Source: Hydrogenimonas thermophila
GTDB taxonomy: Bacteria; Campylobacterota; Campylobacteria; Campylobacterales; Hydrogenimonadaceae
DNA length: 63,847 bases
Direction: 5' to 3'
NCBI RefSeq assembly: GCF_900115615.1
Contig: NZ_FOXB01000009.1
Location: 1 to 63,847, forward strand
The translations under genes and the position numbers were made by a program. The notes under the pieces were generated by a model. That model ran no database searches. It saw nothing but the letters and a program-made list of their open reading frames with translations, and was not told the origin of the DNA. Shown here piece after piece: positions 405 through 27,952 of the stretch. Every line of letters begins with the position of its first letter. The stretch's first letter is position 1.

Positions 405-3400
405 TTATATTTTTTTAAATTTTTTCAATCTTTCACTATTACTTATTTTTGGCTTAATAATTTGTTTTTTTCTTTTGCTATTCGCACTAATTATGTCATT
501 GTTTTTACCTACTAAATAGTCTAAAGTCTCTTTTCTAGGTAATGGCTCATTTGTATTCATTGTTACAACACATTTTATACATCCATTTAAACACTCTTCA
601 TTATGCTTTTCATCAATAAATAATCTTTCTTTAGTTTTTTCTATCCAAGTATTCCATCGATTTTTTGCTAAGTCATACACGTAACCAACACCACCAGATT
701 GATTATCATAAAACATTAAAACATATTTACCATCTATCTCTTGTACTAATGAAGCTATCTCTCTTTCATCAATTCCTAACTCATCAACTCCACTTAGTTT
801 CATAGCATTTGCTAATGTTTGAGCTATTTTAATATCTGTAATCTCTCTTTTAGGAACTATTATAATTGCATCAGTTATCATTTTTGCCATTAAGTTATAA
901 TTTCTCCAGATAGTTGGATGGCTTTCAAGGCATCTATTCAAATCTGACTCACTGTAAATAGAAGCATGTTTTTTAAACGATGTTGGCAATTTATCATAAC
1001 TTCCTTTATTTACCTGTCCATTTTCAGACTCTGCATATCCACACTTTGTACAAATTGCAAATCCATATCCTTTTTCACCTTTATTTATTCCATAAATTGA
1101 TGTTTTTTCTTTATAAACAATTTTAAAATCATCATATTCAAAAACAATATCATTCTTTGAGGTTGAATATATTTCACTATGTATTTCAACTCTTCCTATT
1201 TTTTTAGGACTTGCAATTTTAAATGACAATTTATCTGAAGCAGCAGTAATATAACCATTTTTAGGTATCAAATAATTTGCTGGTTTAACACTTGCCTCAC
1301 ATCCATCCATTTTACATTTATGAACGATATATTGAGATGTAAAAAAATGACCTTTACTACATATATAAATAAATCCATTTTCTCCAAATGCTTCATCTAA
1401 ATTTTCTCCAGTAAAATGTTTTGAAATCCCTTTTGATTCAATCAGTTTTCCTCCAGCTAATATTTTTGAACCTGGAACATATTCAGATAAAGCTATAAAA
1501 CTTCCCCTTGATAATTCAAATTCATCTTTTTCATCTCTTCCTTGATTAATAACTTGAAGTGATTTTACATCTATAGGAAAACCATACTTTGGTAAAATTT
1601 GAGCATTAGAAAATACTTCAATCAAACTCATGCCATGCTTTTGTTTAATATTGTATCTAATTGCATTTTTATGGCTTACTACTGTTGTACTGTTCCAATC
1701 ATTAAAGAGTTCTTTTACATCATTAATATATTTATCACATATTTCTTGAATATTCTTTTTAAACTCTCTTAGTAGTTCATAATAATCAAAATCTTGTTTT
1801 GTATATGCAAAAATTTCTCTAAAAAAGTTTTTGTCCTCTTCTGAAATTTTATAAGTTTTCAAAAAAAGAATAAACTTCTTATAAATTGACTCTTCCTCTA
1901 TTTCAAAATCAAATTTTGAGTAAGAATTATCAGTAAATTTTGGAATTTCCAAAATGCCTACAAAAACTCCCATCTTATTAAAAGAATTAACTAAATTATT
2001 TCGACTGTCAAAATAAGATTCATAAAACTTTGAGAATATAAAAGAGTTAAAATGCCTAATTACCACTTTCTCTTTTTCAAGAGAAATTGTTAACTTTTTA
2101 AGTGGTTTTTCCATATAAAACTTAAAATTTCTAAAAGCATTTTGGTCAAAATGTCTTGTTTTTGCATAAGTCAAAGTAATTGACGAACCATCTGTTCTTC
2201 TTCCTGTACGTCCTGAACGTTGAATATAATTTGCTTTATTTGGCGGAATATTTGCCATTAATACACCACTTAAACCACCAATATCAATACCAACTTCAAG
2301 GGTTGTTGTAGCAGATAAAATATTTCTTTTCCCTTGAATAAAGAGATTTTGTAATCTTCTATTTTCCTTTTGAGAGAGTTGAGCAGAGTGTTCTTCTGCC
2401 CAAAGTCCCATACTTAATTCTTTTGTTCCTTTAAGATACATATTTCTATATCTTGAAAAATAAGGATCTCTATTTAAATCATCTTGAGATACTTTTTTTA
2501 GATTGACAATACTATTTTTTTCAGGAACTATATTGTTTACCGCATTTTGCCAAATTGTTTTATTTATGGTATTTAAATAGAGTGTACTTGGTATTGTTAA
2601 GCCTAATTCATAGAATACAATTCTAAAAGCATCTACTACTCTATCATCATCAGATTGAACTTCTTTATATTCAAGCCATTGTATATCTGCTCTTTTTGAA
2701 GCTACTAAAAATGTTTCATAGATTGCTTCTAAAAAAATATGAATATTTTCATCGGTATCCGCCAAATTGAAACTTCTAAGAATAAAAGCTACAAATCTAT
2801 ATAAAAAACTTTGATTAGTTACTTTTAAATTATAAAGCTTTTTACCTTTTGCATTATATGTGATATATTGACCAAGACCTATTTTTGAAAATTTATCTTT
2901 AATTTCATCAAAATATACTTGTTCTGCTGTAATTGCTTTTAAATCTCTAAAGATATATAAAAATATATTTAAAATCTCTAGTTTTATTTTCTCAAAATTA
3001 TCATATTTATCATCAATAAATATATATTTGAATTTATCAGATAACTCTATTGACTTTATAGCAGGATATATAAATTTTATCAATCCCAAACTTTCTAAGT
3101 TAATATCTTTGATATTTGGAGTAATAAGAGACTCTACTACTCTTGAGTAAATATTTCTTTTGATAGCTTCTAAATTTTTCTCATAAGCTAATTGTTCTCT
3201 TTCATCATAAGATTGTCTCCTCATTCTTTCCTTATCAAAAAATTCTCCAAGTAACTTATGATTTTTTATTTCATGAATTAAATCAGGTATTGTTATAGCA
3301 GAGTCCATTTTTGAAAGTTCAATTTTTAAACTATTTATCTTTTCTATCACTTTTTCTCTAATCTTAGGATTTTCTATACCTTTTAATTTTTTTTCATTTT

Positions 3401-5324
3401 CTAAAATTTCATTTTGATAATACTCTTTTAATTCGTTATTTTCATTTTCTAAAATTTTATTTTGAATCGTTTCAACTATAATTCTTCGAAAAAGTTGAAG
3501 CTCATGTTGGTATGTTAAAAGAGAACCAAGCCTTGCTGCTTCACTTCTACTATCAGAAAAAATTAAAAGTCTTCTTCCCTGAGCTGGTAAAAATCTATTA
3601 ATCTCTTTATCTATTTTAGGCATATTAACAAGCATTGTTTCAGCAACTAAAGGAAGTAAAAACTGATCACTCAAACCGATAGGAATAAAATTATCATTAG
3701 AACACGTTGGACAGACTGAATGAATATAAAATTTGTTATTATAGTCATGTTCAGAGCATTCTTTTCCATCTTTGTTTATATAAATTGATTTTGAAGACTC
3801 TTTAAAACTTAAAAAATAGCTATCTTCATTATCAAACTCATTTGATATAAACCTTTTAAGATGTAGTTGATCTTTATCATCAAATTTTCCATAAAAAAAG
3901 TGTTCACCACATTCAGAACATTTTACAAGATTTAAAGTAGGTCTCTTGCAAGTTGTACAGTTATAAAAAATCCCATGATGAATTTTTCCTATTCCTTCAA
4001 TCTTTGAATCTGGACATTTTGGATTGGAACATATAGAAAAACCTTGTAAGCTTCTAACTTGTAAATGTAACTTGTGAGGGAGTAGCGGAAGTTCATTATC
4101 ATTTTGTCTTGCTTTTGCTCCAATTGTAAAAATATTTAAAAGAGTTTGAGAATCAATAGAGTCAGAAATAATTCTTTGCAGTTTATTAAATTCAATAATA
4201 TCAATATCATTTTCTTCTTCTGGTTTTGACAATATTTTTAAAATTTTAGGAAATATTTTGTAGTTTTTAAATTTATTATATAAATCAAGATTATTTTTTG
4301 TTATTAAATTTGAAATGTCTTTAAAATCTTCTATTTCATTATCAACATTTATATCTTTATCAATTTCTTTAAACTCTTTTTCACCACGAACATTTATAAT
4401 TTTGTATTTACTTTTATTAAAAAATTTACTAAAGAAATCTTGTTGCTCTTCTTTATTATCTGAAATTGTTGCTGTTGTAGCAATATATAAAACCTTTGAA
4501 TTATTAATTTTTGCTTTTGTAATCACTCTTCTTAGTAAAAGTGAAACTTCTGCGGCAAGAGTTCCAGTATATAGATGAGCTTCATCTACAATTATAGTTC
4601 TTAGTGCATTGCCTATTAAAGGATAATCATTTGGTCTTGCTAATATATATTCAAGCATAGAATAATTCGTAATCATTATATCTGGAGGATTTTTCCAAGC
4701 TTCCTCTCTTGTTTTTACAAAGCATTTATCATTAAATTCATCTGTTGCATATTTTTCTTTTTTTGGTGTTTCACTATTGTAAAAAAACATTCTAATTTTT
4801 GATTGCCCTTTTAGATATGAAAACAGTCTTTTATTTTGATCTGCAACTAAAGCATTCATTGGATATAAAATAATTACTCTTACACCTGTTTCTCCCTTTC
4901 TTCTTGGGTTTGATATTAAATCATTAAGCATTGGTAGTAAAAAGGATTCTGTCTTTCCTGAACCAGTCGGTGCAGTAATAACAATAGCTGGTTTGTTATT
5001 TTCATCCATATCACTTACAATCTTTAAAGTCTCATATTGATGTTTATATGGATAAAAATTAGGATCAAAGATTTTATTTAAGTCAAGAAGTTTCAAGAAT
5101 TTTTTATTCAAAAATGGTATATTGTTTAAAGTTTGAGTATGCTTTTTTGCAGGGAATGCACCCTCAACTAAAATTTCTGAAATTAATCCATCCTCTGATT
5201 TTATAACTTCATTTAATTTATTTTGCAATTCACTATCTCTAATATCTATACTACTTAAAGCAACTTCTTCTAGCCTTTCCCTTAAATTTTCTGCTAATTC
5301 TATAGCATTTAAATAGTCAGCCAT
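405..5324 (-). CDS. Large DEAD/DEAH-box helicase with DUF1998-type C-terminus (DruE-like)
   Basis: This 1639-aa superfamily 2 helicase shows the P-loop APTGSGKT (residues 118-125), the DEAH box (247-250), motif III TTAT (283-286) and motif VI QRSGRTGRR (about 1036-1043). The two helicase lobes are separated by an insertion of more than 600 residues with zinc-ribbon cysteine pairs (about 430-540: CSNPKC, CTTC, CSEC, CPTC) and a charged coiled-coil stretch (about 620-720). More cysteine pairs follow at about 1325-1430 (CTKCG). The end carries the DUF1998 signature FYDNQSGGVGYV and a cysteine cluster CLNGCIKC from 1578, as in MrfA-like helicases. Size, domain order and the preceding unknown partner gene match DruE of Druantia anti-phage systems. 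Its start overlaps the upstream gene by 8 bases. MrfA-type repair helicases and DISARM DrmA are alternatives, but both are shorter. Confidence 0.8.
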   Translation of the reverse strand: MADYLNAIELAENLRERLEEVALSSIDIRDSELQNKLNEVIKSEDGLISEILVEGAFPAKKHTQTLNNIPFLNKKFLKLLDLNKIFDPNFYPYKHQYETLKIVSDMDENNKPAIVITAPTGSGKTESFLLPMLNDLISNPRRKGETGVRVIILYPMNALVADQNKRLFSYLKGQSKIRMFFYNSETPKKEKYATDEFNDKCFVKTREEAWKNPPDIMITNYSMLEYILARPNDYPLIGNALRTIIVDEAHLYTGTLAAEVSLLLRRVITKAKINNSKVLYIATTATISDNKEEQQDFFSKFFNKSKYKIINVRGEKEFKEIDKDINVDNEIEDFKDISNLITKNNLDLYNKFKNYKIFPKILKILSKPEEENDIDIIEFNKLQRIISDSIDSQTLLNIFTIGAKARQNDNELPLLPHKLHLQVRSLQGFSICSNPKCPDSKIEGIGKIHHGIFYNCTTCKRPTLNLVKCSECGEHFFYGKFDDKDQLHLKRFISNEFDNEDSYFLSFKESSKSIYINKDGKECSEHDYNNKFYIHSVCPTCSNDNFIPIGLSDQFLLPLVAETMLVNMPKIDKEINRFLPAQGRRLLIFSDSRSEAARLGSLLTYQHELQLFRRIIVETIQNKILENENNELKEYYQNEILENEKKLKGIENPKIREKVIEKINSLKIELSKMDSAITIPDLIHEIKNHKLLGEFFDKERMRRQSYDEREQLAYEKNLEAIKRNIYSRVVESLITPNIKDINLESLGLIKFIYPAIKSIELSDKFKYIFIDDKYDNFEKIKLEILNIFLYIFRDLKAITAEQVYFDEIKDKFSKIGLGQYITYNAKGKKLYNLKVTNQSFLYRFVAFILRSFNLADTDENIHIFLEAIYETFLVASKRADIQWLEYKEVQSDDDRVVDAFRIVFYELGLTIPSTLYLNTINKTIWQNAVNNIVPEKNSIVNLKKVSQDDLNRDPYFSRYRNMYLKGTKELSMGLWAEEHSAQLSQKENRRLQNLFIQGKRNILSATTTLEVGIDIGGLSGVLMANIPPNKANYIQRSGRTGRRTDGSSITLTYAKTRHFDQNAFRNFKFYMEKPLKKLTISLEKEKVVIRHFNSFIFSKFYESYFDSRNNLVNSFNKMGVFVGILEIPKFTDNSYSKFDFEIEEESIYKKFILFLKTYKISEEDKNFFREIFAYTKQDFDYYELLREFKKNIQEICDKYINDVKELFNDWNSTTVVSHKNAIRYNIKQKHGMSLIEVFSNAQILPKYGFPIDVKSLQVINQGRDEKDEFELSRGSFIALSEYVPGSKILAGGKLIESKGISKHFTGENLDEAFGENGFIYICSKGHFFTSQYIVHKCKMDGCEASVKPANYLIPKNGYITAASDKLSFKIASPKKIGRVEIHSEIYSTSKNDIVFEYDDFKIVYKEKTSIYGINKGEKGYGFAICTKCGYAESENGQVNKGSYDKLPTSFKKHASIYSESDLNRCLESHPTIWRNYNLMAKMITDAIIIVPKREITDIKIAQTLANAMKLSGVDELGIDEREIASLVQEIDGKYVLMFYDNQSGGVGYVYDLAKNRWNTWIEKTKERLFIDEKHNEECLNGCIKCVVTMNTNEPLPRKETLDYLVGKNNDIISANSKRKKQIIKPKISNSERLKKFKKI

Positions 5325-8022
5325 TTAATCTCTCCAATGCTTTTTTTAAATAGTATTTTCCATTTATATAATGCATAGCAATTTTTAAACTATGTTCTTT
5401 AATCTCTTTTAAAGTTGTTATTCTAAATAAATTGTCAATAATCTCTTTAATAAATTTTTCATCCCTTTCACCATTTAACTCAACTCTCATAGATACTAGA
5501 TAATTATAAAAATAATTTATCAATTTATTTGAGTTTGATGCTTGTAGAAGTTTAAATAATACAATTGGTGTATCAATCATAAAATTTTCTTTTCTATTAA
5601 GAACAATTTCATTAAGTATCTTAATAGATTTTTCGGTATCAAACTTAAATGAAAACAAAGTATGATCTATTAAGTTTTTATATTTTGAAAAGTTTAATTT
5701 AAGCATATCTCCATTTATATTTATTTGTTCACTATAAAATTCTGAAAAAAATTCTTTTAAATTAGTATCAATGCCTTTTCTTAGAAAATTTGTAAAAGAG
5801 TCTTTTGATAAAAATATATAATTTGACAATAATAAATTTTTTATTACTTCAAAGTTTCTATAATCATCAAAATTATTTAAAAACTTTGAATCATATGTAC
5901 TATCTATTATATTATTTTCATGTATCAGTAGAGCAGAGATTAACTTATTATCAAATCTAAATTTATTATCTGTAAATTCTAAATCTTTAACCAAATATCT
6001 ATGATATTGAAACTCTTGATCTAATAGTATTAATTTTGAATTTTGTGGAATATTTTTACGTATAAAAATTTCATTTAAATTTGTATCTGATAAAGATATA
6101 TATTCATCAGAATTTTTATAATAAAAAATACTATTATTAAGAGTATAAAATTTATCACTTGAAATAAAAATTGTTTCTCCAAATCCATCTAAACTATTAA
6201 ATTTAAATATTCTATTTGGTTTAATACTTTGATAAAAGTTTGATTTACTTTTAACATAAAACTTTTCACTTTTACTAAAATCGCTTAAATAGTACTTATA
6301 TTCAAGAATATCATATTTAGTCAGAAAAGATGATCTATCTACAATCTCACACTCATATCTTCTATCAGTAAAAACTTTAAAAAGCTGATATTTTTTATAT
6401 TTATTATAATTTTCAATGAAATTGCAATTTAAAACTTTTTTAAATACTCTGCCTTTATATTTTAAAAATATTGTATGTTTTGGAAATACAACCATTTCCG
6501 GATGTAGTTTTACTTTAATTGTATTATTTTGAATATCACTAAAATCAGCATAACCAACAGAGTATGACCACTTTATTACTTTACATTCATCTGGCAAATC
6601 TGATAACGATATTTCTTCTGTATCAGAATTGAAATGCATTACTTTTAGTTCAAATATATACTCTTTATCAATAACAAATGAGTCAAATGAGTAATCTGTT
6701 TTAGCACAAGTATATAATACTAAATTATCAATAAAATCAGGTTTTTCAATATATGTTTTAAAATTTAACTCAAATAATACTTCATTATCATATATTATTT
6801 TACAGTCATCTTTATATCCTACAAATGGAACTAAAGTAGCATACCCTTCAAAATATTCTCTTTGATTATCTATATTAAAATTGCAGTCCAAATCTGAATC
6901 AATTAAAATGTGATATTTTTTAGAAGCATTTAATTTTTTAAATATATTTTGACAAATATTACCATCTTCATCAAATAAAATCATCTGTTCACTAAAATCA
7001 AATAGTGTAATCTCTGTAGCATATACTACATCACTATCTTCATTTCTAACTTCCAAATCTATCTGATTAATTTTGGGATTTGAAATTATAATTGGAGATT
7101 CTAGTATTAATTCTTTTGAATTGTTTGCAATTAAAATACCTTTATATTCATCATCAATATAAATTTCATATCTAAAACCACTCAAATTAAGTGAATAGAG
7201 ATCTTGTGCATTAATAGTAAAATTAAGACCATCATATGAATAATTAATCTTTTCAAGATAAAAGATTGGCAAATCTTCATCTTGTGTTATCATCAATTGC
7301 TTTTTAACTCTTTGTTTAGCTGCTTTTAATAACTCATCTAAATTTAGATGTTTAAACCAGATATTTTGATTTAAAATATTTTTGACTTGCTCTTTTGATA
7401 AAATATTATCTCTATATCTTCTTAAAACTCTCCATCCATCACTAAACTCTTTTGAAAAATTTAGTGAATCTACATTTAAAAGTTCTGAAATTACTATAAG
7501 CAGATTATAATTTGAGAGCCATAACTTTAAATTATCAATACTATTATTTAATAGTCCAATTTGTAATAATATTGTATTTCTAAGATATTGATGCTCATCT
7601 CTGTTTTCAAAATCATTTCTTAGATTAAACTCTTTTGTTGCTAATTCTATAGATTCTTTTAAAAAATTATTTGGATTTTTTCTCGATATAAAATAAGTAT
7701 CAAGAAAAAAAGTAGTTGTTCTTGCATATTTTTCTAAATCTTCAATAATTATATTCCAAAGTGAAGAATAACTTAACTTATGTTTTAACCTATATGTTAC
7801 ATAAATCAAAAATATTAATCCTACAAATGCTTTCCTATTTTGTGATAATTTTTCAGGTCTTTCTCTAAAATGAAACAAAATTTCTTCAATAAAATCAATA
7901 TCATTTTCACTTAAATTTAATTCTATAATAGATTTAGTATTTTTGTTCTCATAAAAAAAATCAACAATCCTACTAACAACCTCATTATTATATTTCTTTA
8001 AAATTTCTTGTTTATTTATCAT
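5317..8022 (-). CDS. 901-aa protein of unknown fold, partner of the helicase (candidate DruH)
   Basis: I recognise no catalytic motif. Residues 1 to about 270 are predicted mostly helical, with repeated Leu/Ile/Asn-rich amphipathic stretches. About 270-720 is rich in alternating Tyr/Phe/Ile/Asp as in beta-sandwich domains. The last 180 residues are helical again. No signal peptide or membrane helix is seen. ATG at 8022 follows GAGAGG and overlaps the stop codon of a short upstream frame (ATGA). Its own end overlaps the helicase start by 8 bases, so the pair is translated together. A large unknown protein directly upstream of a DUF1998 helicase is the layout of Druantia type III (DruH-DruE). 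That identification rests on context and size, not on sequence similarity I can verify. Confidence 0.6.
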   Translation of the reverse strand: MINKQEILKKYNNEVVSRIVDFFYENKNTKSIIELNLSENDIDFIEEILFHFRERPEKLSQNRKAFVGLIFLIYVTYRLKHKLSYSSLWNIIIEDLEKYARTTTFFLDTYFISRKNPNNFLKESIELATKEFNLRNDFENRDEHQYLRNTILLQIGLLNNSIDNLKLWLSNYNLLIVISELLNVDSLNFSKEFSDGWRVLRRYRDNILSKEQVKNILNQNIWFKHLNLDELLKAAKQRVKKQLMITQDEDLPIFYLEKINYSYDGLNFTINAQDLYSLNLSGFRYEIYIDDEYKGILIANNSKELILESPIIISNPKINQIDLEVRNEDSDVVYATEITLFDFSEQMILFDEDGNICQNIFKKLNASKKYHILIDSDLDCNFNIDNQREYFEGYATLVPFVGYKDDCKIIYDNEVLFELNFKTYIEKPDFIDNLVLYTCAKTDYSFDSFVIDKEYIFELKVMHFNSDTEEISLSDLPDECKVIKWSYSVGYADFSDIQNNTIKVKLHPEMVVFPKHTIFLKYKGRVFKKVLNCNFIENYNKYKKYQLFKVFTDRRYECEIVDRSSFLTKYDILEYKYYLSDFSKSEKFYVKSKSNFYQSIKPNRIFKFNSLDGFGETIFISSDKFYTLNNSIFYYKNSDEYISLSDTNLNEIFIRKNIPQNSKLILLDQEFQYHRYLVKDLEFTDNKFRFDNKLISALLIHENNIIDSTYDSKFLNNFDDYRNFEVIKNLLLSNYIFLSKDSFTNFLRKGIDTNLKEFFSEFYSEQININGDMLKLNFSKYKNLIDHTLFSFKFDTEKSIKILNEIVLNRKENFMIDTPIVLFKLLQASNSNKLINYFYNYLVSMRVELNGERDEKFIKEIIDNLFRITTLKEIKEHSLKIAMHYINGKYYLKKALERLNG

Positions 8023-8129
8023 TTTACACCTCTCGCAAACTCCTCATCAATGAAGATCTCACAATACTCTTCACCATCTTGTACGATTATAATATTTTGA
8101 CCCGTTGGAAGATAGATCGCTCTTTTCAA
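8019..8129 (-). CDS. Short 36-aa reading frame translationally coupled to the 901-aa gene
   Basis: This frame opens at TTG (8129), has AGGA six bases upstream, and ends in TGA overlapping the ATG of the next gene (ATGA). The product would be 36 residues, MKRAIYLPTGQN then an acidic end EEYCEIFIDEEFARGVK. It is preceded in frame by an upstream stop at about 8163, so it is either a true leader peptide or the C-terminal remnant of a longer deleted gene in the defence operon. The overlap, the spacing and the protein-like composition favour translation. Its function is unknown. Confidence 0.4.
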   Translation of the reverse strand: MKRAIYLPTGQNIIIVQDGEEYCEIFIDEEFARGVK

Positions 8130-8279: not shown

Positions 8280-8318
8280 TATATCTATTAAATATTATTT
8301 AAATATTTAATAGATATA
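8280..8318. promoter_or_regulatory. 17-bp perfect inverted repeat upstream of parA
   Basis: Positions 8280-8296 and 8302-8318 are exact reverse complements (arm TATATCTATTAAATATT) separated by ATTTA. The right arm runs into the AGATATA direct repeats at 8312-8330. It lies in the 230-bp gap between the defence operon and parA and is a likely binding site for the partition proteins or an autoregulatory operator. Confidence 0.55.
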
Positions 8319-8330
8319 CTATAGATATAT
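8312..8330 (+). repeat. Operator-like repeat, copy 1 (upstream of parA)
   Basis: The 19-mer AGATATACTATAGATATAT here is identical to 9014-9032, in front of the small ribbon-helix-helix gene. Each copy contains AGATATA twice, 11 bp apart, close to one helical turn, and each is preceded at the same distance by TTTAAATAT. Identical sites in front of both genes of a ParA/small-RHH pair suggest binding by the RHH protein. Confidence 0.6.
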
Positions 8331-8359: not shown

Positions 8360-9004
8360 TTGATTCTAACACTCTCACATCAAAAAGGTGGCGTAGGAAA
8401 ATCTACAATAGCTTGGAATCTTGCTTTTGAGCTTAGCAAGAATATTGATGTAAAAGTTATTGACCTTGATATTCAACAATCTTTGAGTGTTGCAAATGAT
8501 ATAAGGGTTAATAGTGGTTTGCCAAGTATGCCAATTGAAAAAATTGAATCACCTGATAGGCTTACTAAACTTATTCAAAATGATACAGATGATCAGTTAA
8601 TTATTATCGATTCAGGAGGTTTTGACAGCTCTTTTAACCGTATAGCTATCGTTGCATCTGATATGATCATAACACCTATTTCAGATAAACCTTTTGATCT
8701 TATGGGATTAAAAAAGTATGAAGAGATACTGCAAACTCTATCAGATATACAAAAAGAGACTATACAGTCTCATGTAATATTTAATAGCATCAATCCATCA
8801 ATGAGAAGATTTGAAGAATTAATAGAATTTGTAGAGAGTTCCAAACATTTCAAACCATTAAAAACAATACTGCGTCAAAGAGTTGATTATGCAAACTCCA
8901 TAGGCTCTGGTAAAACTGTATGCGAATACAAGCCAGCATCAAAAGCTGCTCAAGAAATACTTGCTCTTGCCAAAGAAGTAAAAGAGCTATTGAATATATT
9001 TTAA
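8360..9004 (+). CDS. parA: ParA-family partition ATPase
   Basis: This 214-aa protein belongs to the small ParA class without an N-terminal DNA-binding domain. The deviant Walker A KGGVGKST is at residues 9-16, the Walker A' region is VIDLDIQQS, and the Walker B-like strand is LIIIDSGG. Such ATPases pattern on DNA and move or space a partner-bound cargo (plasmid, integrative element or protein cluster). The start is TTG at 8360, nine bases after AAAGGG; no ATG fits the frame better. It is followed after 40 bases by a small ribbon-helix-helix gene, the usual ParB-substitute partner in type Ib partition modules. Its presence in a transposase-rich island suggests a former plasmid or integrative element. 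Confidence 0.88.
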   Translation: MILTLSHQKGGVGKSTIAWNLAFELSKNIDVKVIDLDIQQSLSVANDIRVNSGLPSMPIEKIESPDRLTKLIQNDTDDQLIIIDSGGFDSSFNRIAIVASDMIITPISDKPFDLMGLKKYEEILQTLSDIQKETIQSHVIFNSINPSMRRFEELIEFVESSKHFKPLKTILRQRVDYANSIGSGKTVCEYKPASKAAQEILALAKEVKELLNIF

Positions 9005-9013
9005 ATATCAAAA

Positions 9014-9032
9014 AGATATACTATAGATATAT
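9014..9032 (+). repeat. Operator-like repeat, copy 2 (upstream of the RHH gene)
   Basis: Exact second copy of the 19-mer at 8312-8330. It lies between the parA stop and the AAAGGA ribosome binding site of the next gene. Including the TTTAAATAT block, 28 of 33 positions agree between the two sites. Confidence 0.6.
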
Positions 9033-9044
9033 AAAGGATATGTT

Positions 9045-9263
9045 ATGGCAAAAAAAGATTTTTTAAAAAATATCGATCAAGTAACATCTTCAGCTGCTCT
9101 AGATGAGCAAAAGAAGTCTTTAGAAAAACCTCAAAAGAAGAAAAAACTAATCTCATTACCAGTTGAGTGGGAAGAGAAAATCAAAGCATATTATGGTGGT
9201 TCAGTAAATTCTTATATTCTTATAGCTATTCAAGAGAGGATGCAAAAGGATGGGCTTTTGTAA
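9045..9263 (+). CDS. Small ribbon-helix-helix protein, probable ParA partner
   Basis: This is a 72-aa basic protein. The N-terminal half is Lys/Gln-rich and probably flexible. The C-terminal half (KLISLPVEWEEKIKAYYGG, then SVNSYILIAIQERM) fits one strand followed by two helices of a ribbon-helix-helix fold, as in ParG-like centromere-binding proteins. ATG follows AAAGGA at good spacing, and a copy of the AGATATA operator sits just upstream. It likely binds the repeated sites and represses the pair. The small size, flexible basic tail and parA linkage support the role; the exact family is not certain. Confidence 0.7.
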   Translation: MAKKDFLKNIDQVTSSAALDEQKKSLEKPQKKKKLISLPVEWEEKIKAYYGGSVNSYILIAIQERMQKDGLL

Positions 9264-13248: not shown

Positions 13249-13381
13249 ATTCCAATCCTCCTTTTGTTTTTATTAGATATATATACATATTTTGCACTCT
13301 TGTAAGAAAGTTAAACAAATTAAGAGATTGGAATTTTTTTTAAGTAGAATAATTTTGTAGTAAGTGTTTAAAATATTTGTA

Positions 13382-14305
13382 ACCCAAATTGCTAGTTAAT
13401 CAATAACATTTGCTTCTCTTCATCAAGCTTCAAAAAGCAGTCAATGCTGTAAGCGACAAGAAAGAGTTTAAGTTTTGTAAGAAAACCACCTATGGATGTT
13501 GCCTTGATTACTTTACCAAACTTGGCTGTTATCATAGAGAAGGCTGTTTCAACGCCTTTTCTAATTTTTCGTTTAATGAAATAATCATCATCATATTGCA
13601 TACGTTTCTTAAATATTGGTGAAAGCTTGATATTCAATTTTTTTAGAAACTCTTCAAGCTTACTAGAGATATATCCTTTATCTCCTATGGCAATTGATCC
13701 TTTTGGTAGATGAGAAAGTAGTCCATAAGCTGCTGTAACATCATGCATTGATCCTTCAGAAATAAAGAAGTAAACAGGTGATTTATCTGTAGTAACAACC
13801 ATATGAACTTTAAAACCATAAAAGAATCGACACTTAGAAGCATTAAAACCTTTAAAATCTGGATTATTCCATAGCTGACACCGTTTTTCTCTAGTGATAT
13901 TGCATAACTCTACTGGAAAGGAATCAACAGAGTAGATATTTGTTCCTTCAAGTTTGATAAATAGTTTACCTAGCCAAGAAAAGAGTTTTTCAATTATCTG
14001 CTCTAAACGATTAAGCCGTCTAATAAAGCGTGAATATTCAGGTATCTTAACAAAATTAAGCATTTGACAGTACTTGTGTGCTTTGCGATAATTTCCATTG
14101 AAATCACTGACTGCAAGATATCCAACCAAAAGTATCTCACTATTGGATACTTCTGCTCTAATATCATCTTTGATCCCATTTACTTTTAGATATTCATCTA
14201 TTAAACAATAAACTGTTATAATTCTTTGCTCCATAAATTGCCCCCAAGCTTTTTATGGAGTACTCAAGCAAACTTTAATCCTTCTTTGAAACTAGCAATT
14301 TGGGT
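13382..14305 (-). mobile_element. Complete IS982-family insertion sequence, 924 bp
   Basis: The ends are 16-bp perfect inverted repeats, ACCCAAATTGCTAGTT at 13382-13397 and its complement at 14290-14305. The element is flanked on both sides by the 8-bp direct repeat TATTTGTA (13374-13381 and 14306-14313), a target duplication. One transposase gene fills it on the minus strand. The intact repeats and intact catalytic residues indicate a recent, probably functional insertion. Confidence 0.9.
13392..14234 (-). CDS. IS982-family DDE transposase
   Basis: The 280-aa length is typical for the family. The DDE triad is visible as Asp104 in YSVDSFPVELC, Asp185 in AIGDKGYIS and Glu229 in RKGVETAFSMI. 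The N-terminal region (NYRKAHKYCQ, then SRFIRRLNRL) matches the IS982 helical domain. The reading frame is uninterrupted and its stop lies inside the left inverted repeat, which is common in compact elements. No neighbouring gene is interrupted in an obvious way. Confidence 0.9.
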   Translation of the reverse strand: MEQRIITVYCLIDEYLKVNGIKDDIRAEVSNSEILLVGYLAVSDFNGNYRKAHKYCQMLNFVKIPEYSRFIRRLNRLEQIIEKLFSWLGKLFIKLEGTNIYSVDSFPVELCNITREKRCQLWNNPDFKGFNASKCRFFYGFKVHMVVTTDKSPVYFFISEGSMHDVTAAYGLLSHLPKGSIAIGDKGYISSKLEEFLKKLNIKLSPIFKKRMQYDDDYFIKRKIRKGVETAFSMITAKFGKVIKATSIGGFLTKLKLFLVAYSIDCFLKLDEEKQMLLIN

Positions 14306-14434
14306 TATTTGTAAGATAATATTACACATAGGGAACAAGGACAGGTAATCACGTCAAGTGCATTAAATAACAAAAAATACATTATTTTTAGTAGCTCAAA
14401 TTGTTGTTTTTTACTATAATTATAATTTTATACT

Positions 14435-15821: not shown

Positions 15822-15896
15822 TGGGGTATCGCCAAGCGGTAAGGCAGCAGGTTTTGGTCCTGCCATTCGGGGGTTCGAATCCCTCTACCCCATCCA
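15822..15896 (+). tRNA. tRNA-Gln (TTG)
   Basis: The acceptor arm TGGGGTA (15822-15828) pairs with TACCCCA (15886-15892). The anticodon loop TTTTGGT between CAGG and CCTG arms gives anticodon TTG. The T arm has GGTTCGAATCC, and CCA is encoded at 15894-15896. It is cotranscribed with the next tRNA from the consensus promoter. Confidence 0.95.
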
Positions 15897-15909
15897 CTTT
15901 TTCTTCAAT

Positions 15910-15986
<77 letters not shown>

Positions 15987-25159: not shown

Positions 25160-27952
25160 CTACTTTTTTATATAACGGCGTATTTGCCGTCCTCCTCTAT
25201 AACACTCTTGGCATATACCAAATTTAAAGTTGGGCGGTAGCGGCTTTCCACAACGTTTACAAGCTCTGGCAAAAACACCCTGTCTCAAAGAGCGTTCAAT
25301 AAAATCATTAAGAATTTTCCTAGCTTCTAAAGCATTTTCAGTATCTATGAAAAAATTAGAAAAACGATAAGATAACCAAAGATATAAAGAGACCTCTTTA
25401 ACCATCTCTTCTGCTTCAAAGAGCATATCTGAAGTTTGTGCAACTTGCGGCAGATGTTCAGGTAGATTAAATGGTATCGGCTCTTGTCGCTCAAGTGAGA
25501 TTAGGTAGCGATGAAAAACACTCTCAAGGTATGGTGATCCCAAACTAAGTGGAGCACATGCAAGATGATATTTTGTCTTAAGATCCAAATTGTACAGATC
25601 AACCATTTTAGCAATCTCAAGCATATTTTCAATATTAGCCGCAATAAATGGACCATCAAACTGCATATGTTTAACAAAGAAACCTAAAATCTCTGAAAGG
25701 CTTTGTGTCTCAATGATTTTTGCAATCAAATCAATATGATCAAAATTTGCCATTACACGGTATGGACCACGAATTGATGGAGATGGTTCATCTATCAGTT
25801 CTGTAATAGTATTTAAAACAGGTCCTGTCAAGGCACCTACAAAACCCTCTTCGTGTAAACCGTAACGCCCTGCTCTTCCTGCAATTTGACGAATTTCAGA
25901 TGGTGTTAGAAGACGACGGCTTTGACCGTCAAATTTAGAGTCACGCGCAAAAAGAATAGTTCTAATAGGAAGATTCAACCCCATTGCGATAGCATCAGTT
26001 GCAACCAAGATTTGCGATTCGCCTTCTCTAAATCGTCTTGCCTCTTCCCTTCGTACTTCCGGACTCAAATTTCCATAAACGACAGAAACATCATAACGAC
26101 CGCTTAACTGCTCTTTGAGAGCTAAAACATCACGTCTTGAAAAAGCTACAATAGCAGTAGAAGGTTCAAGTTTTTTCAGTGATGTAGAGTTAGAGTTGAG
26201 AATAAGCGGTGATTTTCTCTCAAATCGTACTACTTCAAGCTCTTCATCAAGCCACTCTGCCAACTCTTGCACCGCTTCGAGTGCATCTTCACTTCCAGTC
26301 ATTATGACAGTATGAGCAGGAATCCCAATAATCGCATTTGCCCAAGCCCAGCCACGATCTGGATCAGCAATCATTTGAACTTCATCTATAACACAGACAT
26401 CAACATCAACCTGAAAGTTTACCATCTCAATGGTTGAGCTTATGTGTGCTGCCTCCTCGTCAATAATCTGCTCTTCTCCTGTTATCAAACTAGCCTCTAA
26501 ACCGGAGTTTTTTAAAGTTTCATACCCTTCAAGCGCTAAAAGACGAAGAGGAGCAAGATAGTATCCAGTATCAGCCTCTTTTAATTTTTCCATAGCGGCA
26601 TATGTTTTTCCGCTATTTGTTGGACCAACGTGAAAGATGAGTTTACGACCCATCTCTCTTGCCAATGGAAATAGGTTTTTAAAATCTCTGATAGTACGCG
26701 CAAGAAGTTCTTCACGCTGTTTTTTTAGCTTAAGTCCCTCTATTTGACGTGCAAAATGGCGATTGATTCTTTTTAATGTTTTGTAAGGTATCTCAAGAAC
26801 CTCTTTTTGAGAAATTGCATCAATTACAGAGTTGGCAATAATCGTCTCTACCTGCTCATCTCTCATTTCAAGCCCTTCAGCCTCGCTTAACAGGGCATCT
26901 TTAAGTGCAATTAACTCAGCATCAAACTGTGCCTCAACCTCATTACGACGCATTTCAAAATCTTCATCAATAGGCAAATGCTCATTTTCCCAAATAGCCT
27001 GATAGAGCCATCGCATCTGCACTTCGAGTAACAGTTTGTATCTGACTTTCCACTCCGGATTTTTAAAAAGTTCTTTTTCAAATTTTTTAAACAATCTAAA
27101 GCTATCAGATAAAACCTCTATATCTTTAATCTCAAACTGATTAAACAATATTTCGTGCAAATACTCTGAAGGAATTGGGACAAATGCAAAATCACAATTT
27201 TCTGGAATCCGTTTAATTGCCTTTAATTTCTGATCAATATCTAAATATCTGTTAGGTTTTGAAGCAATCTCTAAAAACTGCTTAATTTCCTCTTCTCTTT
27301 TGCGAATAGCACTCTCTTTACAACTCTCAAGTCTCTTGCCAAGTTCTTCTTCATCAAGCGTTAAAATCTCTTCTTCTTCAAACGGTCTGCAACTAAGCTC
27401 AAGAATCTTATGAAATTGCTCATCAAAAATTTTAAAGGCAAATGAGTGGAAGAAATGAAAGTTTCCGTCATCATCAAATGCACCGTCAAACTTCTCCTCC
27501 AAGCTATTACGCTTTTTAGCGTTTCGCAACTTCATAAGAGATTTTTGAATGCGTTTTGGCGTAATCTTTTTTAGCTTTACATCTTCAAACAGCTCTCTTA
27601 TTGCAACCGCTTCACCTGGAGTATGATCTATGGTTGAGAGTATCTCATCAATTTTTTCAAGCCTTGCTTCTTGACTTGAAACTGTTTTATCTACTTTAAA
27701 AGTTGTATCAAGCGATTTAAGATACTCGGTGATCAATGCTCTGTCTGCCGTATCACCATTTGACCATACACGACGAAAAGCTTTTACAAGGTCTGCTTTA
27801 GTTAAGTGCTGCTCTTTAAGTGAGAGGATCATTGCCATTTCTATTAAGTTATCTAATGGAACACGGGTGATCCCCTCATCAAAACCTTCGCCGCCAAAAA
27901 TTTTACGTATAGTTTGATTATATTTAATCAGTTTTTTCTTTTTCTTTGCCAT
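25160..27952 (-). CDS. Suv3-like SF2 RNA helicase with C-terminal zinc finger
   Basis: This 930-aa protein has the Suv3-specific P-loop GPTNSGKTYAAM (about residues 440-450), YYLAPLRLLALEGY (motif Ia), DEVQMI (motif II, a DEVQ variant), TGSEDA (motif III) and IRQIAGRAGRYG (motif VI). A long helical N-terminal extension precedes the core. The end carries two CxxC pairs (CKRCG, CQECY), a zinc ribbon. Suv3 relatives unwind RNA or RNA-DNA in mitochondria with a ribonuclease partner; bacterial members are common in Campylobacterota and Alphaproteobacteria. It is separated by 32 bases from mog upstream. The partner nuclease is not in the window. Confidence 0.88.
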   Translation of the reverse strand: MAKKKKKLIKYNQTIRKIFGGEGFDEGITRVPLDNLIEMAMILSLKEQHLTKADLVKAFRRVWSNGDTADRALITEYLKSLDTTFKVDKTVSSQEARLEKIDEILSTIDHTPGEAVAIRELFEDVKLKKITPKRIQKSLMKLRNAKKRNSLEEKFDGAFDDDGNFHFFHSFAFKIFDEQFHKILELSCRPFEEEEILTLDEEELGKRLESCKESAIRKREEEIKQFLEIASKPNRYLDIDQKLKAIKRIPENCDFAFVPIPSEYLHEILFNQFEIKDIEVLSDSFRLFKKFEKELFKNPEWKVRYKLLLEVQMRWLYQAIWENEHLPIDEDFEMRRNEVEAQFDAELIALKDALLSEAEGLEMRDEQVETIIANSVIDAISQKEVLEIPYKTLKRINRHFARQIEGLKLKKQREELLARTIRDFKNLFPLAREMGRKLIFHVGPTNSGKTYAAMEKLKEADTGYYLAPLRLLALEGYETLKNSGLEASLITGEEQIIDEEAAHISSTIEMVNFQVDVDVCVIDEVQMIADPDRGWAWANAIIGIPAHTVIMTGSEDALEAVQELAEWLDEELEVVRFERKSPLILNSNSTSLKKLEPSTAIVAFSRRDVLALKEQLSGRYDVSVVYGNLSPEVRREEARRFREGESQILVATDAIAMGLNLPIRTILFARDSKFDGQSRRLLTPSEIRQIAGRAGRYGLHEEGFVGALTGPVLNTITELIDEPSPSIRGPYRVMANFDHIDLIAKIIETQSLSEILGFFVKHMQFDGPFIAANIENMLEIAKMVDLYNLDLKTKYHLACAPLSLGSPYLESVFHRYLISLERQEPIPFNLPEHLPQVAQTSDMLFEAEEMVKEVSLYLWLSYRFSNFFIDTENALEARKILNDFIERSLRQGVFARACKRCGKPLPPNFKFGICQECYRGGRQIRRYIKK

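Follow-up and report, generated by a model that had tools for sequence, protein, structure and literature searches.

Druantia III of the E. coli ECOR19 type consists of two genes. One encodes DruH, which probably senses structural proteins of the phage, and the other DruE, a helicase loading onto 3' single-stranded DNA (PMC13192584). DruE is a YprA-family DEAH helicase with a DUF1998 domain, and in its canonical form the C-terminal region is occupied by PLD nuclease domains; DruH, in the layout given by Wu et al., has helical ends around Ig-like domains and is reported to diverge faster than DruE (PMC13192584). In M. smegmatis, a Druantia III encoded by two overlapping genes (MSMEG_1253/1254) is reported to protect from phages, and its 1667-aa DruE, for which only DExD/H, helicase C and DUF1998 domains and no nuclease are described, is reported to block phage DNA circularisation together with an 1132-aa DruH when triggered by a minor tail protein (PMC13316683). 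Additionally, the accessible part of the report by Bell et al. 2025 describes a distinct Druantia III-like (III-B) branch, mostly without nuclease domains, with GIH50614.1 as its reference protein (PMC12458937).

Here, we describe a gene pair in a 63,847-nucleotide stretch of DNA (the window), which is a whole contig of the 2.44-Mb genome of the Campylobacterota bacterium Hydrogenimonas thermophila, a member of the same taxonomic order as Arcobacter cryaerophilus. A sequence-only reading had proposed a two-gene helicase operon, a candidate Druantia III-like or new defence system, at 405-8129. Both genes lie where it placed them, on the minus strand with the partner gene preceding the helicase gene, and they overlap by exactly the 8 bases claimed; the upper limit of 8129 takes in a further short open reading frame. 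The features are as follows.

405..5324, minus strand: DruE-like YprA-family DEAH helicase of 1639 aa, assigned from PADLOC DruE3, Pfam DEAD, Helicase_C and MZB, its position in the tree and the length of its tail.
5317..8022, minus strand: partner protein of 901 aa, probably a divergent DruH-like protein, with no family match; assigned from an AlphaFold2 model, homologues upstream of related helicases and profile similarity to DruH.
5317..5324, minus strand: 8-bp overlap of the two genes, ATGGCTGA, with GGAGAG upstream, read from the sequence.
8019..8129, minus strand: 36-codon TTG-started open reading frame overlapping the partner start codon, read from the sequence.

The pair region has a GC content of 21-27%, against 33-40% in the other genes of the contig, as would be expected for acquired DNA, and at this composition both open reading frames are far too long to have arisen by chance. 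The same 8-bp overlap occurs in three related genomes (G117, A. cryaerophilus LMG 9065; G414; G466) and, with the GGAGAG motif, suggests translational coupling. Both genes are under purifying selection: between G117 and G414, dN/dS is 0.20 in the helicase gene and 0.24 in the partner gene. The 36-codon frame, which reads LKRAIYLPTGQNIIIVQDGEEYCEIFIDEEFARGVK, may be a leader or a gene relic, and membership in the system is not implied. In a further genome, G015, DNA identity ends about 9 bp upstream of the partner start, and a similar peptide, YCKTFIDDEY, is still readable there.

The helicase carries the Walker A motif TAPTGSGKTE, DEAH, the motif VI sequence QRSGRTGRR and several CxxC pairs, with Pfam matches to DEAD, Helicase_C and, at residues 1512-1586, a C-terminal MZB/DUF1998 domain, in agreement with the proposed DEAH helicase with zinc ribbons and a DUF1998-type end. 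Its best PADLOC model is DruE3 (PDLC00037, 679.5 bits), followed by DruE1 (485 bits); the DpdJ, BrxH and DrmA models all score below 100 bits. The nearest solved structure by sequence is 9TU7, a 2108-aa helicase (295.1 bits), which is presumably E. coli DruE: it is as long as the DruE of an E. coli plasmid, and the entry next to it (9TUD) is DruH. MrfA/YprA repair helicases, DISARM DrmAB and ARMADA share the YprA-family helicase core and are much weaker matches. DISARM was rejected as an identity, since DrmA and DrmB (DUF1998) are separate proteins there whereas DUF1998 is fused to the helicase in the window, and since DrmA scores 74 bits against 679 for DruE3; Dpd and ARMADA were discarded because of their profile scores and the position of the helicase in the tree.

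Repair enzymes do occur among YprA-family helicases (PMC12458937), and the pair could in principle be a repair or housekeeping helicase of the YprA/MrfA type with an accessory protein rather than a defence system. An MrfA identity was rejected, however: MrfA matches the window helicase far more weakly than DruE does (60.5 bits against 295.1 for 9TU7), and the tree groups the helicase with DruE. Relatives of the pair are patchily distributed, being present in 4 of 397 Campylobacterota genomes, and are surrounded by defence genes and mobile elements. We therefore consider a repair function highly improbable.

When bacterial and archaeal genomes were scanned with the helicase, 16 loci showed full-length similarity, at E values from 0 to about 1e-165, before a drop to 1e-48; in a scan of viral contigs, matches were only to other DruE/YprA lineages. 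A quick LG+G4 tree of 60 helicases, rooted at the midpoint and with SH-aLRT as its only support measure, places the window helicase in a clade of 19 sequences (SH-aLRT 100). This clade comprises the scan loci minus one with a split helicase frame (L022), a helicase from a Roseomonas plasmid, two further Campylobacterota sequences and the window itself, and its phyla include Campylobacterota, Spirochaetota, Thermodesulfobacteriota, Planctomycetota, Acidobacteriota, Lentisphaerota, Verrucomicrobiota, Bacillota, Latescibacterota and Pseudomonadota. It is sister (SH-aLRT 99) to, and not nested within, eight DruE proteins adjoining recognised DruH. The profile and tree results thus support the proposal that the locus is Druantia III-like.

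The window helicase also differs from canonical DruE at its C-terminus. It stops about 54 aa past the DUF1998/MZB cysteines and has no C-terminal nuclease region, whereas the DruE of Marinobacter (L102) continues for about 415 residues past DUF1998, the region that holds the PLD domains of canonical DruE (PMC13192584). The short tail is common to clade members with a readable C-terminus, except for three Verrucomicrobia with long, unclassified C-terminal regions. Most DruH-linked DruE proteins have a tail, and one DruH-linked locus (L101) likewise has none.

The partner, described in the sequence-only reading as having no recognisable motif, indeed yields zero matches in PADLOC (including its 13 DruH models), Pfam and NCBIfam. 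None of 16 clade partners matches any PADLOC DruH model at E<=1, and the same models do detect the DruH of E. coli and of Chryseobacterium. Clade loci with sufficient upstream DNA nevertheless have a large open reading frame there, and homologues of the partner immediately precede the clade helicase in Campylobacterota, Acidobacteriota, Verrucomicrobiota, Geomonas, Desulforamulus, Latescibacterota and the Roseomonas plasmid. Pairwise blastp between the window partner and most others gives E values of 7e-17 to 3e-11 (L025, 7e-17; L014, 1e-16; L018, 5e-14; L016, 6e-14). Most loci match the partner profile by construction, since they were used to build it; outside that building set it matches L005 (2e-26), G414 (777 bits) and G466 (534 bits), and on the remaining retrieved loci it gives no further match. 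Searching plasmids by tblastn with three different partners found none, although the partner next to the helicase of the Roseomonas plasmid is picked up by the profile. A weak match in G073 was set aside, being a 1595-aa open reading frame without a Pfam match that the family profile does not find.

Among the 397 Campylobacterota genomes, the partner occurs in four and the full-length helicase in the same four, adjacent every time, so that a partner standing alone in genomes without the helicase, which would have spoken against the proposed operon, was not seen; in a fifth genome (G015) the start of the partner lies at a contig end. Identities of partner and helicase, respectively, are 64/72, 49/63, 33/51 and 23/32%, and the partner thus diverges faster, in agreement with a putative sensor role. 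Some partners carry N-terminal extensions absent in the window: integrase-repeat-like units in A. cryaerophilus (L012, 6436-7332) and G466 (L114), seen as weak Pfam matches; RNA polymerase alpha-CTD repeats (L016); sigma-70 region 4 (L024); and a weak HTH (L005). The G414 partner (L113) is without the first ~95 core residues and lies downstream of a Tn3-family transposase, and a second contig of that genome (G414:C17) carries a decayed C-terminal helicase fragment.

The relationship of the partner to DruH was analysed by profile-profile comparison (HHalign) of 17 aligned partners with 12 aligned DruH proteins. The N-terminal domains match collinearly over ~160 columns, with scores of 35.9-39.2, P values of 2e-4 to 6e-5 and HHalign probabilities of 47-65%. 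Control scores are no higher than 21.1 in 120 column shuffles, 11.7 and 13.4 for reversed profiles and no higher than 24.2 in 48 helicase windows, and the N-domain score stays at or above 30.5 when any single row is left out. A middle region also matches collinearly (32.7, against at most 22.9 in 60 shuffles), which may reflect generic Ig folds. The C-terminal parts of the two profiles give no signal and there is no whole-length profile match; single-sequence and two-row comparisons of partner and DruH return nothing, the signal coming from deep profiles only.

The AlphaFold2 model of the partner (mean pLDDT 77, pTM 0.48; N-domain alone, pLDDT 91) predicts a helical N-domain (residues 1-236), Ig-like beta domains (253-711) and a helical C-domain (712-900), matching the published DruH layout. 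Fold searches of the PDB with the whole model recover tandem Ig domains only, and a search with the N-domain alone returned nothing. A fold search among viral structures likewise gives tandem Ig domains for the whole model; DruH appears in neither the PDB nor the viral results, an absence that carries no weight either way.

Two identities had been left open for the partner, a divergent DruH or a different protein altogether. The collinear N-domain similarity and the matching predicted architecture favour the former, and the partner is probably a remote homologue of DruH, short of proof; since it fails every DruH profile, the pair is a sister variant and not a canonical member of Druantia III. 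An unrelated Ig-domain protein could instead have taken the sensor role beside a DruE-type helicase, giving a separate system that converged on the DruH layout. Such an origin would fit the failure of the DruH profiles on all 16 members, the lack of whole-length and C-terminal similarity to DruH and the N-domain without a PDB fold match. It accounts less well for an N-domain match to DruH that is collinear and well above the shuffle, reversal and unrelated-window controls, or for the same gene order and layout as DruH-DruE beside helicases that form sister groups, and we consider it unlikely. A related proposal, which we hold to be possible if rather unlikely, is a separate unnamed two-gene family in about ten phyla, in which a nuclease-less DruE-like helicase would work with an Ig-domain sensor bearing a lineage-swapped N-terminal DNA-binding extension (RNA polymerase alpha-CTD repeats, sigma-70 region-4-like HTH or integrase repeat units, none in the window), so that sensing and DNA engagement would differ from those of DruH-DruE.

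The surroundings of the pair contain mobile and partition genes, much as had been proposed. The ISAs1-type element is real and is cut at the contig edge: window positions 1..~356 hold the end of the element with the start of its DDE_Tnp_1_assoc transposase, there are about 12 copies in the genome, and several other contigs begin with the same element. Since this insertion sequence begins 49 bp past the helicase and ends the contig, the downstream side of the window pair is unreadable. On the other side, divergent from the pair, are a ParA-type ATPase (8360-9004) and a 72-aa basic protein (9045-9260), which confirm the claimed partition module; IS200/IS605 and IS982 elements account for the other transposases. 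One copy of a 46-nt repeat ending in GATATACTATAGATATAT precedes ParA (8285-8330) and a second lies at the ParA end (8987-9032); the two copies resemble the parS sites of a plasmid partition module. Further along, the IS982 element (13380-14307), with 18-bp perfect terminal inverted repeats, adjoins ribBA and two tRNA genes (Gln, Met; 15822-15986), and a 930-aa protein (25160-27952, minus strand) shows weak similarity to Hel308/RecG helicases. No other defence genes were found beside the pair in the window, and no BrxHII-like or PglX-like genes were seen there.

The relatives elsewhere have fuller neighbourhoods. In A. cryaerophilus LMG 9065 the order is integrase, WYL regulator, partner, helicase, half-length HsdS, HsdM, RhuM, HsdS, patatin and SMODS, of which the final pair is CBASS-like. 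Other loci of the clade have AbiD, an AAA_5 ATPase or a NERD helicase nearby. Directly after the helicase in G117, G414 and G466 are a 195-196-aa HsdS-like gene and a 495-aa HsdM gene (L012, 15002-17084; L113; L114), which are possibly linked functionally to the pair. These genes raise the question of whether the pair is a piece of a larger system in which a type I-like methyltransferase labels the cell's own DNA in the manner of DISARM or BREX, and whether the insertion sequence 49 bp past the window helicase has truncated the local copy. However, the clade members outside Campylobacterota with downstream open reading frames inspected have no HsdS/HsdM pair, and the best HsdM in the window genome is only 47% identical and lies on another contig, making this arrangement improbable.

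Taken together, these observations suggest that the two genes probably make up an anti-phage system that is of Druantia III type when the term is taken broadly, with a highly divergent DruH-like sensor. It shares with the ECOR19-type system (PMC13192584) the order and orientation of its two genes, a YprA-family DEAH helicase with DUF1998, and a large partner with a predicted helical N-domain, Ig-like domains and helical C-domain; it differs in a partner that DruH profiles miss, in a helicase that falls in a sister clade and in the absence of the C-terminal PLD nuclease domains. Compared by description, it resembles the M. smegmatis system (PMC13316683) in its two overlapping genes and in the domains of its helicase, and it resembles the III-like (III-B) branch, as the accessible part of the source presents it, in lying near Druantia III and usually being nuclease-less (PMC12458937). 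The pair probably belongs within that nuclease-poor branch, again matched by description to what that part of the source gives (PMC12458937). The suggestion that the locus is a new variant is therefore tempered, since a Druantia III-like branch poor in nucleases had been named before, by Bell et al. 2025 (PMC12458937); of the partner family and its relation to DruH we found no earlier description.

The sensor role, substrate, mechanism and defensive function of the pair may be modelled on published Druantia III work. By this analogy, the Ig-like domains of the partner would bind a phage protein, its helical N-domain would be related to that of DruH and its helical C-domain might serve in dimerisation. 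A late structural protein of the phage would be the trigger: having recognised it, the sensor would activate or license the DruE-like 3'-5' helicase. This helicase would load where 3' single-stranded DNA is exposed in phage intermediates and, once licensed, disrupt phage DNA replication or circularisation. As the helicase has no PLD nuclease, any cleavage would have to be the work of the partner or of the host's enzymes.

Because the partner is invisible to all DruH profiles, current tools would either miss this locus or report a DruE on its own; a profile built on the partner family would expose a widespread sister group of Druantia III. As its helicase lacks a nuclease domain, the system would offer a direct test of whether phage are stopped by helicase action alone or by cleavage by the partner, and the Ig-domain sensors of the clade would form a separate, independent group in which to study what phage proteins are recognised.
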